Source: Rhea pennata (taxonomy: Eukaryota; Chordata; Aves; Rheiformes; Rheidae). Taken from it: DNA of 64,000 nt. This document shows, piece after piece, positions 164 through 29,073 of the stretch. A program made the translations under genes and the position numbers. How positions within the stretch are numbered: the stretch's first letter is position 1; each line of letters starts with the position of its first letter. Under the pieces are notes generated by a model. The model was not told the origin of the DNA. It saw nothing but the letters and a program-made list of their open reading frames with translations, and searched no databases. The stretch lies in the NCBI RefSeq assembly GCF_028389875.1, contig NW_026907681.1, positions 1,426,001-1,490,000 of the forward strand, given 5' to 3'.

Positions 164-246
164 TTCTTCTGCTGCACACCAAGCCAGCATTTCACAGCTC
201 TTCTCGGTGCCGCCAGCATTGGGCACGCAGCGCCCTGTCTTCTGCC
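164..246 (-). pseudogene. P2X receptor-like exon 5, copy 1
   Basis: On the minus strand a good acceptor (ttgtcctcacag) precedes an 83-bp open exon that ends at a consensus donor GTGAGT. It encodes the P2X head-region pattern TGRCVP...KSCEMLAWC, the conserved Cys-rich stretch of the ATP-gated cation channel ectodomain. The exon is phase 1 at its start. Only 15 bp of intron separate it from the LTR. Similarity is closest, by memory, to P2RX2. The copy lacks exon 3 upstream, so it is called a pseudogene fragment. Confidence 0.72.
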
Positions 247-347
247 CTGTGAGGACAAACACACAACGCTGAACTTCCTGGTAAATGGGGTCCTGCCCAG
301 TGTGCAGTGCTGCACAGATCACTTGTCCCTGCACATGCCCAGCTCTC

Positions 348-423
348 TGTGGCCCAACATGTCCATGTCGCCAGGGGTGCAGTCATGGTCGCAGCTGCAT
401 ACAGCACTGCAAACTGTTAGCCC
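348..423 (-). pseudogene. P2X receptor-like exon 4, copy 1
   Basis: The minus strand shows an acceptor (accctgcag) and an open stretch with VCSAVCSCDHDC and DMDMLGH. This aligns with the Cys-rich segment that precedes TGRCVP in P2X subunits. The expected donor after the DMLGH codons reads GAGAGC instead of GTGAGC, so the 5' splice site appears lost. The same change is in all three copies. Confidence 0.65.
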
Positions 424-1392
424 CTGCAGGGTCATGGGGGACATGATGAGAACAGGACATGCACCTGGTAGTCCTACGCTGTGGCTGCAGAGGGGACGGG
501 GCACCCCATGTGCTTCCCCATCTCTGCATAGGTGCCAGCCCTTGCAAGCTGCCTGGGGTAAGCAGCCGTTAAGCGTGCCTGCGGTGGCCCTACTCTAGCA
601 TGGCTTTCCTTGGTGTGTCCTCCAGAGTAGACAGTCAACCCTCTTCTCCATTTCCTGGCATGGGAACTGAGCCAGGGGCAGCTGTGCTCACTAGGATTCC
701 CCACGTCTCTGCATCCGCCAGCAAGCTCCGCTCAGTCTCCACACATCTCCCCTCCCGTGATCCCTCACTCAGCAGCCCGCAAACAGTGCCCAAGCCAAGG
801 CAGGCAGGGGGATCCCTGCCACAAACTGGTAGCAGCAGAGGAGAGCTACAGGCACCAACATCACGTGAATGTCAGAGCCTCCCCTGACCTGATCTGAGAG
901 TGCCCTCTCCCGCCCTGAACATCCAAAACCACAGAGGCCTGACGCTGCTTGTCAAGGCAGGCAGAGCATGGCGCACCTGCCTGGCTAAGACCACAGGGCC
1001 CTGCCCGGTGCTACGTGCCAAGCTCCCCAAGCTCCGCTGAGCCTGCCGCACAGCACTGCAAATGTGACCTAACATGCAGTCCCAATGTGTCTGGGACGCA
1101 GCTATGGTGGCCTCATCGGGAGCCAAGGACAGTGCTGGGCCTGGAGGAGGGAACACGGGAGTCCCCATGCAGGCAGCGGGGACCACCACACACGACAGCT
1201 TCCTTTGCTGGGTCCATCTGGATGAAGGAGCAGTTGGGAAGCCCTTGCAGAAAGTCTGCTGCTCATCTACTGCTCCAAGAGGCCACCCAAAGCAAGCAAG
1301 ACAAGAGAAGAGAAGGGAGAAAGGCGGGTCAGAGCCTCACCTCGGCTGTGTGGGTTGGGGGGGTGTAGAGCAGAGGCGGGGGTGGTGGTGGT
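424..1392. other. P2X-like intron sequence with deletion junction
   Basis: No exon is recognised here. At 865-867 the sequence acgt|gaatgtc marks the point where 1831 bp found in copy 3 (24453-26283) are missing. That missing block includes P2X-like exon 3. A purine-rich stretch lies at about 1290-1325. Confidence 0.6.
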
Positions 1393-1527
1393 TGTGGGCT
1401 ATGTACACTGCAACATCGCACACCTTGCTTGGTGACTGTGTCACGCCCTTGACTTTGGTGAGGACAGAGCTCTGCGGGCTTGTCTCCCATTCCTGGTAGC
1501 CCTTCTGAAGGATGACAGGAAAAGGCG
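1393..1527 (-). pseudogene. P2X receptor-like exon 2, copy 1
   Basis: On the minus strand the frame reads QKGYQEWE, SSVLTKVKG and VCDVAVYIA. This matches the P2X exon 2 layout from the end of TM1 through the conserved TKVKG and the usual W-D-V motif. The Trp is replaced by Cys. A tag acceptor at 1528-1530 would give a phase that does not fit the phase-2 end of exon 1. At the 3' end a CCA/C-rich tract replaces the expected in-phase donor. Both points favour a decayed copy. Confidence 0.68.
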
Positions 1528-1563
1528 CTATCAGTGATCTCCTCGCCTCTGGGACCCAGAGTG

Positions 1564-26806: not shown

Positions 26807-26941
26807 TGTGGGCTATGTACACCCCGACATCGCACACCTTGCTTGGTGACTGTGTCACGCCCTTGACTTTGGTGAGGACAGAGCTCTGCGGGCTTGTCTC
26901 CCATTCCTGGTAGCCCTTCTGAAGGATGACAGGAAAAGGCG
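26807..26941 (-). pseudogene. P2X receptor-like exon 2, copy 3
   Basis: As in copies 1 and 2 (QKGYQ, SSVLTKVKG, C-D-V). The tract after YIAHN is C-rich and differs in length from the other copies, so this low-complexity run is the fastest-changing part of the exon edge. It may have destroyed the donor. Confidence 0.66.
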
Positions 26942-27081
26942 CTATCAGTGATCTCCTCGCCTCTGGGACCCAGAGTGCTGCATCTGTACTACGGGATACT
27001 TGGTGGGAACGGTCTGTGTTGCACCTTTTGTATCCATACTACATGATACTTGGTGGGAACGGTCCCTGCTGTAACTTTTGG

Positions 27082-27690
27082 GTGTCTAGAACACTACCGC
27101 TGTGTTAAGCAGAATACGAATAAGTAACTAACAAGGTCCTGGAAATCTGCGAGAAAGAACAGTGAACAGATCCGGTGGCTTCCAGCCACAGAATAACCGT
27201 GAGAAACAGTCAACAAGAAGGTCTGAAGTTGAAGAGTAACTCCAAAGTCAATGTGGCCCCCGAAATAAATCTGCACACGTGCGCAGTGTCATAGCCCAGT
27301 TATGCAACCGGGGCGGAGTTGGGCTAAACTCCCTGCACTTGCTGGCCCCATGTGCCGGGACTCCCGCCTACCGCGAATAACCATAAATACCGGAATTTTT
27401 CCAAAGGAGAGGGAAGTTGCTACACAACAGAGGGCCAAGTTGCCTCCTCAGGAACGCCCAAAAGGATTGTACCTGCCAACTCTCTCTCTGTCATCATGTA
27501 GATGATTGGGACAAGCATTGGAGTGGTCCTTCTCAAGATTTCCATTGGGTCGGTCTCTTTGTAAGTATTTATGAATAAACTGCTTGCTGGTGAAGTGTGC
27601 GTGCGTGTGTGTGTGTGTTAGTGCTGCCTTGCCAAAGCAGACACTTGGCCCCCGGGAACCGGAGTGGAACAGGTGCTCCCTAGCACCATT
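27082..27690 (+). mobile_element. Possible solitary LTR (uncut version)
   Basis: The segment has ccataaatacc (about 27381) and aataaactgcttgctg (about 27574), then a GTGTGT run and a sequence ending near ggaacag. A TATA-like box followed at about 190 bp by a poly(A) signal resembles an LTR U3-R layout. Boundaries are uncertain and no second LTR or internal region is seen. Copies 1 and 2 hold only its left half. Confidence 0.35.
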
Positions 27691-28945
27691 TGTGGGCACC
27701 AGCACATGGGGCTAGGAGGCACAGGGCTCTGCTGCTGTTTGAGGTATTTGAGGGCAGCAGGCAGGATGGGAAGGGCTCTGCTCGGCTACTTTGTTCACCA
27801 GGCACGTGTCATCCATCTCCTGCAGCTCTGGAAGTCCCTGGGATCTGGCACTGCAATGCTCCAGCGGCGCCTTCTCTTTCCTATCCCTCTGCTCCACTTC
27901 CAGTCACGCTTCCAGGAGATCATGGTATGGGGCAATATGTGGGCAAGGAGGTAATCTCAGAGCCACCAAAGGCAGGCAGAGTGGACAGACAGCTAAGAGA
28001 GAGCTGCCACACTCGCCTTGCCCTGTACAGCAACACATGCCCACGGTCTCTGCGGTATCTCCCACAGCCTGCAGGCATGGCCCCTCCATCACCTTGTCCC
28101 AAGCAGCTTCTGGAGAGCATAGGCTCCAGCATAGCTGCTTTGTGGCACAGGAGAGGGTGGAGGTGGTGTATGGAGAGTCGTGCCAGGGCAAGCACGAACA
28201 CCCTGCTCTCTCTGGCTGCCAGCAGTACCTGCTAATCTGGGCTTTGCACAGCTCAGGAAAGGTGAAAGCATCCCAAAGGCAGGGATGGGATGATGCCAGC
28301 GTCAGGTCCTAAGTGCCACAGAGGAGCCGTGGCAGCCACCTGCAAATAGCCAAGCTGCTCTGCACAGGCAAGCAGAGCGCCCCAGCAGGGCAGTCTCAGG
28401 CGAGCCAGCCTCCCTGGCCTGGGATTTGCACCTCACGGCTACCTTGCCCGTGCAGGGCAGGCCTTTGCGGTTGGCAGAAAGCACAGGCAGAGCTCTGCCA
28501 CCCACTTCCTTCAGCAGCCAAGCATTACCCATCTCCTGCAGACGTAGAAATCCCTGGGATCCAGCATTGCCAAGCTGCAGTTGTGCTATCCACAGGTGTG
28601 CAGGCCACGTGGGAAAAATGGGACAAGGCTCAGGGACAGCACCCCTGCAGGGGTCCCAGTCGGGGGCGTACAAGAAAAGTGGCCCTTAGAGCAGGATGTG
28701 AAGGGACTGGAGCAATGGGACAGGGCACGGGGAGATCACCATCAGGGTAGGGCAGAGACACTGCGCCCCCCGCCTCTTGCAGCACTATGGCTTTAGCTGA
28801 AATCGCCTTCCCCCTCTCCCAGCAGAGGCAAGAGAAGCTGCCCTGGCAACTTGTGGGGCTGCGCAGGGGCTGTGTGCGGAGCAGGGATAAACCGTGCGGC
28901 AGCGATGCCCCACCGGGAGGCAGCAGCTCCCAGCCCCGCACTCGC
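27691..28945. other. P2X-like intron 1, copy 3
   Basis: No exon recognised. Two imperfectly similar 60-bp stretches at about 27810-27865 and 28525-28580 share catctcctgcag...aatccctgggatc, a small diverged duplication. Confidence 0.5.
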
Positions 28946-29073
28946 CTGACCAAGTAAAGCAGGACGAGGAGCTGCAGCGCACGGTGCCTGGTGCCGAGGT
29001 GCCCGTTCCTCACCACCATCACCTGTGGGGTGGAGTAGCTGCACAGCGCCCACAGGCAATCCCGGGCACCCAT
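28946..29073 (-). pseudogene. P2X receptor-like exon 1
   Basis: From an ATG at 29073 the frame encodes a short N-terminus, then YSTPQVMVVRN and LGTRHRALQLLVLLYLV. This matches the P2X N-terminus and first half of TM1 and is closest by memory to P2RX2. The conserved Thr-x-Lys/Arg phosphorylation motif reads TPQ. The 128-bp exon ends in phase 2 at CAG|GCGAGT, a GC donor. Length and phase fit P2X exon 1. Only one copy is in the window. Confidence 0.75.

Follow-up and report, generated by a model that had tools for sequence, protein, structure and literature searches.

A P2RX2 gene of Rhea pennata, very probably disabled before its amplification as macrosatellite-like DNA

In LPA, a working gene, the KIV-2 repeat is translated in frame, and D4Z4 is an example of a macrosatellite. 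According to the part of the source cited here, the repeated KIV-2 region is ~5.5 kb long and variable in copy number (PMC12123407). We analysed a 64,000-nucleotide stretch of the 1.27-Gb Rhea pennata assembly (C144:1426001-1490000, hereafter the window), which carries exons of the receptor gene P2RX2 in a tandem array. As in LPA KIV-2, as far as that part of the source describes it, a unit of several kilobases with exons lies in tandem inside one gene; unlike KIV-2, the rhea block lies in what we regard as a pseudogene, and on many contigs. With macrosatellites and segmental duplications the locus shares kilobase tandem units, near-identical neighbours, a spread over many contigs and several positions near contig ends. 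It differs from them in that the unit comes from an unprocessed receptor gene with pieces of POLE and LRRC52, in a bird. The copies have the properties of segmental duplications (>1 kb, >=90% identity, more than one genomic place) and of macrosatellites (kilobase units in tandem arrays, six ~11.79 kb apart on C144 and a run on C139). The exon order, the sequence and the neighbouring POLE gene on contig C17 are as in P2RX2, whereas the rhea copies show a dead exon-4 donor, an off-frame exon-2 tail, a three-residue exon-8 deletion and further lesions in exons 7 and 8. Among the matches listed in the open PubMed Central literature, none deals with an amplification or a loss of P2RX2, be it in rheas or in birds more widely.

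Because a dead exon-4 donor is common to the examined copies, and because exons diverge like introns, a P2RX2 copy was very probably disabled before it multiplied, and would now be passive macrosatellite-like segmental-duplication DNA from which no receptor is made. The exon-4 donor reads GA in 17 of 17 aligned copies, including the C17 copy and the three window copies, which are nearly identical to one another. Over the whole genome, the GA donor was found in 148 exact exon-4 matches. The exon-4 pattern with a GT donor was matched once, on C25, and no P2RX2 similarity is present in the 2 kb around that match. The pattern search of the genome thus yielded no exon 4 of P2RX2 that has GT as its donor; the patterns need a conserved 24-base frame, and more diverged exon 4s would escape them. 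The length of the exon-2 tail is off by a number of bases that is not a multiple of three in 10/10 copies read by pattern, as compared with the kiwi tail length deduced from the kiwi protein. In exon 8, three residues of a conserved stretch are absent from all eight aligned copies, and a 37-bp deletion removes the exon end in four of these eight. Exon 7 of the C17 copy carries two deletions, of 14 bp and 1 bp, and the exon-8 donor of this copy is lost; the canonical exon-6 donor is lost in all six aligned copies other than C17. A complete open frame with usable splice sites, as expected for a working receptor, was not found in these copies, and receptor function appears very unlikely. The first-pass annotation, made from the window alone, had described a P2X receptor as broken and amplified, and both words agree with these splice lesions and with the many copies genome-wide.

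The divergence was compared between the C17 copy and 11 other copies. At non-CpG sites it is 3.3, 4.6 and 4.2% at codon positions 1, 2 and 3, respectively, 4.6% at fourfold sites and 4.4% in introns, in pairs that are not independent and with exons 3 and 7 excluded from the codon pieces. The raw exon and intron divergence values are also alike. Since the non-CpG divergence at codon positions is close to that of introns, the comparison gives no clear indication that the protein has been under constraint since the copies split.

Several observations weigh against this reading. The raw ratio of nonsynonymous to synonymous divergence (dN/dS) is 0.25-0.80 between the C17 copy and 12 copies, and no stop codon is present in the 83-229 codons compared per copy. 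We attribute the ratio below 1 to CpG sites; because these sites make the raw ratio misleading, the comparison of codon positions with introns was made without them. Even then, codon position 1 stays below introns. NCBI models the copies as 'P2X purinoceptor 2-like' proteins, in eight clusters among the matches listed, and such Rhea pennata proteins are located on C144, C138 and C149. In the midpoint-rooted tree of 16 exon 4-5 regions, the C17 copy does not fall outside the other copies, in a tree with one of 12 inner branches well supported and too weak for dating or rooting the copies. The P2RX2 models of cassowary (P0002) and emu (P0008) have no normal exon 4, and the donor loss may be older than the rheas, or tolerated. 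Finally, a subtelomeric home is seen for C139 only. Among five contig ends, the C139 start (1-600) is filled with telomere repeats, ~130-272 kb from the C139 array, and no telomere repeats were found at the C8 end, the C18 start, the C144 end or the C149 start.

The joined translation of the five window exons (159 aa) was compared with the PDB, and the best match is P2X2 (E 5e-45, 156 bits), with P2X4 at 79 bits. The joined exons match 35 distinct PDB sequences, 34 of which are named P2X and one 'putative uncharacterized protein'. The P2X match can thus be taken as not due to chance. Kiwi P2RX2 is the closest protein to the composite query (78%), and among full-length relatives the P2RX2 proteins of kiwi and cassowary are nearest. 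Exons 1, 2 and 5 show 33-56% identity to the six other P2X genes of the rhea genome, which we take to be P2RX1, P2RX3, P2RX4, P2RX5, P2RX6 and P2RX7. The window gene is therefore nearer to P2X2 than to the other subtypes, as expected for a P2RX2 ortholog, and the P2X receptor-like identity first assigned to it is sharpened to P2RX2. The synteny of the best match, which had been suggested as a check, points the same way. On C17, exon 12 is located at C17:15255907 (+) and the POLE 3' exons at C17:15262583-15265326 (-). As this tail-to-tail order is that of the neighbouring human P2RX2 and POLE genes, the C17 copy is probably the ancestral locus; the window copy is a duplicate elsewhere. A change from NFR to NYR at the ATP (adenosine triphosphate) site was considered as a lesion and dropped, since NY is what kiwi, cassowary, emu and chicken have at this site of the protein. 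A published chicken P2X2 primer, as given in the cited part of its source and translated here, reads NY likewise (PMC9899245).

P2X genes usually have 12 exons, and the exons are numbered here accordingly, with exons 9 and 10 treated unseparated. In the rightmost copy of the window, P2X exons 1-5 are arranged in order on the minus strand and span 23739-29073. Exon 1 (28946..29073), placed by tblastn and exon alignment, begins with the ATG at 29073 and has a GC donor (AG/GCGAGT). Exon 2, with the TKVKG motif, is located at 26758..26921, with an uncertain 5' boundary and a C-rich tail that is off-frame compared with kiwi. Exon 3 (24557..24628) is 72 bp long, ends with CPE, has AG/GT flanks and occurs in this copy only within the window. 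Exon 4 (23934..24009), with the donor changed from GT to GA, and exon 5 (23739..23832) follow. Exons 2, 4 and 5 are also present on the minus strand in each of two ~11.79-kb units, at 13132..13298, 12139..12214 and 11944..12037 in unit 2, and at 1341..1507, 348..423 and 153..246 in unit 1, with dead exon-4 donors in both. These are the exon subsets that the first-pass annotation had seen in the two units. All the hallmark motifs that it had named lie on the minus strand as described: YSTPQ...VVRN at 29034, TKVKG at 1459, 13250 and 26873, CSCDHDC at 399, 12190 and 23985, and TGRCVP at 238, 12029 and 23824. Its statement that the exons keep P2X phases holds for exon 3 and fails at the lost exon-4 donor and at the exon-2 tail. 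In the window, no exon beyond exon 5 was found at E < 0.02, and no P2X Pfam match is listed. A 50-bp tandem repeat of two copies is located just 5' of exon 2, at 1568-1666 and 13359-13457, and the bases immediately 5' of exon 2 in the units differ from those of the C17 gene.

The two tandem units are located at 1..11791 (11,791 bp) and 11792..23586 (11,795 bp), and they differ by 21 mismatches and 4 gap letters, for an identity of 99.79%. According to the self-comparison, 1-12657 matches 11792-24452 head to tail at 99.78%, and a partial third copy follows. The segment 24453..26281 (1.83 kb), which holds exon 3, is not in units 1 and 2, and beyond this segment the right copy matches the units at 95%. 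Exon 3 can thus be taken to have gone from the units with a 1.83-kb deletion. The array extends to the left of the window. Among the exon-5 matches listed are C144:1390812, 1402609, 1414402, 1426196, 1437987 and 1449782; the exon block occurs six times on C144:1390.8-1450.5 kb, with an exon-5 spacing of 11,791-11,797 bp. At the left end of the array, in L031 (C144:1383001-1392000), exons 6-12, including both exons of the second transmembrane segment (TM2), are present at C144:1386.8-1390.5 kb. The array is therefore one P2RX2 gene with an internal exon 2-5 array, with exon 1 on the right and the pore-side exons on the left. The earlier remark that no pore or TM2 exon is visible is right for the window and wrong for the array, and exons 6-12, which were to refute the annotation if found intact further left with a full transcript expressed, do lie there but carry lesions. 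Compared with the C17 copy, the unit runs from ~200 bp past exon 5 into the P2RX2 5' flank, and then into intron 1 without exon 1. The 5'-flank segments are located on the minus strand at 1940..4362 in unit 1 and 13731..16153 in unit 2, and match C17:15243192-15245123 in pieces, with exon 1 missing before intron 1. On C139, the unit is ~6.24 kb long and has exon 3 and no endogenous retrovirus (ERV), and a run of 18 exon-5 matches is spaced 6,231-6,243 bp apart, among the matches listed. The size of the window unit agrees with a 6.24-kb unit that lost 1.83 kb and gained an ERV of ~7.4 kb.

This ERV is located on the minus strand at the exon-5 donor and intron 5, at 4570..11939 in unit 1, with long terminal repeats (LTRs) at 4570-4929 and 11585-11939 that are 95.3% identical. 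Its counterpart in unit 2 is located at 16361..23734 on the same strand. The flanks GTAGCC and GTACCT are degenerate 6-bp target-site repeats, and the sequence is continuous across the empty site in L018, L020 and L031. According to the LTR pattern, five ERVs are located between the six exon blocks of the window array. As these five are at an identical place, the ERV was probably present before the array expanded. The same ERV of the 11.8-kb unit was detected by the LTR pattern at C144:1.288-1.295 Mb, C144:1.992-1.999 Mb, C147:1.158-1.165 Mb and C18:0.509-0.516 Mb; looser LTR-pattern matches elsewhere are candidates for other LTRs.

P2RX2 was not amplified alone. POLE 3' exons are present on C17 and 11 other contigs (at least 106 matches, counted per exon), and a POLE start exon is located near P2RX2 exon 1 in L024, where the protein piece matches POLE structures. 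In the window, LRRC52, known in mammals as a testis gene, is represented by exon 1 (37056..37682, +) and exon 2 (41254..41469, +), which are 96% and 97% identical to the annotated rhea LRRC52-like protein. LRRC52 is also present at C8:29706035, which is likely its ancestral place. Copies with the whole first exon were also found on C144 and C147, LRRC52 being multi-copy on C144, and shorter pieces on C18, C149, C138, C144 and C147. In the window, the first exons of LRRC52 and P2RX2 are arranged head-to-head, and they are so arranged, within 10 kb, in 12 other copies among the matches listed. The POLE and LRRC52 pieces are evidently co-amplified with P2RX2, and the view of a P2X gene as the cargo of the array is correct for P2RX2 and too narrow in naming it alone.

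Copies were counted genome-wide by patterns allowing up to 3 mismatches; the backward control gave 0 for exons 1, 5 and 12. Exon 1 was matched 29 times, exon 5 166 times and exon 12 35 times. Among the matches listed, those of exon 5 are on ten contigs and in both orientations. The exon-12 matches, which are all exact (35/35), are distributed over C144 (15), C18 (9), C138 (3), C149 (3) and, with one each, C8, C17, C139, C146 and C147. A number of copies are found close to the end of a contig, as on C8, C18, C138 and C149. The exon-12 copies at C144:1554411, 1595332 and 1636276 are 40.9 kb apart, and this spacing suggests a higher-order repeat above the small units.

Other explanations were weighed against a gene disabled before amplification. 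Some copies might still make a shortened P2X2-like protein, for example from exons 6-12 with TM2, which would act as a decoy or as a dominant-negative subunit. Pore-side exons are spanned by NCBI models, P0101, P0121 and P0123 among them, and the TM2 exons are well preserved, as the exact exon-12 matches indicate. However, odd joins are needed: P0021 joins exon 1 to exon 5, P0121 places a POLE-like start before exon 1 and continues with exon 6, and P0123 runs into intron 6 and skips exon 7. The lost exon-6 donors, the deleted exon-8 ends and the lack of constraint at codon position 2 also argue against such a protein, which we regard as very improbable. There is an equally slim chance that false duplications, unresolved haplotypes or other assembly artefacts account for the array and its many copies. 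The positions close to contig ends on C8, C18, C138 and C149, where assemblies often break, would fit this; but there are 21 mismatches between units 1 and 2, several percent of divergence separates other copies, which also have deletions and junctions of their own, and the spread over ten contigs in both orientations also speaks against artefacts.

It is extremely improbable that a retroelement captured and carried the P2RX2 sequence, as the annotation's word 'captured' implied. An ERV does lie beside the exons in each 11.8-kb unit. However, the copies contain introns and the 5' flank, POLE adjoins the copy that is likely ancestral, the ERV, which has two LTRs and target-site repeats, splits a sequence that runs on unbroken in three other loci, and ERV-free arrays exist, as on C139. 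The ERV is thus an insertion within the gene, and the copies are not a processed or retrovirally captured pseudogene. An RNA-level role of the amplified locus, for example as a locus of non-coding or small RNA that is active in the germline and starts from the LRRC52 side, would fit the head-to-head LRRC52 and P2RX2 first exons and the ERVs embedded in the array; segmental duplication alone, however, accounts for this layout, and such a role is very improbable. In a wider form of this idea, a P2RX2-POLE-LRRC52 duplicon would have a shared divergent promoter, be transcribed in the germline through the ERVs and serve as a lineage-specific non-coding or small-RNA locus, with array size selected and P2X2 lost; this, too, is very improbable.

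On the preferred reading, in which a disabled P2RX2 copy was amplified passively, the P2RX2-POLE region would have been duplicated to another place, and this duplicate joined to an LRRC52 segment. The joined duplicon may then have spread over at least ten contigs through exchanges among similar sequences. The exon 2-5 block, which in the window's gene is fused to that gene's own 5' flank, would have been expanded by unequal crossing-over between direct repeats into arrays of 5.8-6.2-kb units. In one lineage, the ERV would have inserted at the exon-5 donor and the 1.83-kb deletion taken exon 3, and the resulting 11.8-kb unit may have been amplified and copied to other places. P2X2 is a hearing and chemosensory receptor in mammals. 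If the reading is true, this bird has lost the ATP-gated channel P2X2 and carries >160 copies of its exon-5 block, and the amplification occurred in a class reported to be poor in segmental duplications. The locus would also be a clean case for dating gene death, duplication, retroelement gain and the turn to a macrosatellite, and the public rhea 'P2X purinoceptor 2-like' models would probably be pseudogene fragments.

Two further ERVs are located in the window, at 47267-56099 (+) and, inverted, at 30001-36551. They are related to each other, with 97% identity over their common parts, and the larger one of the pair has Gag_p30, RVT_1 and TLV_coat matches.

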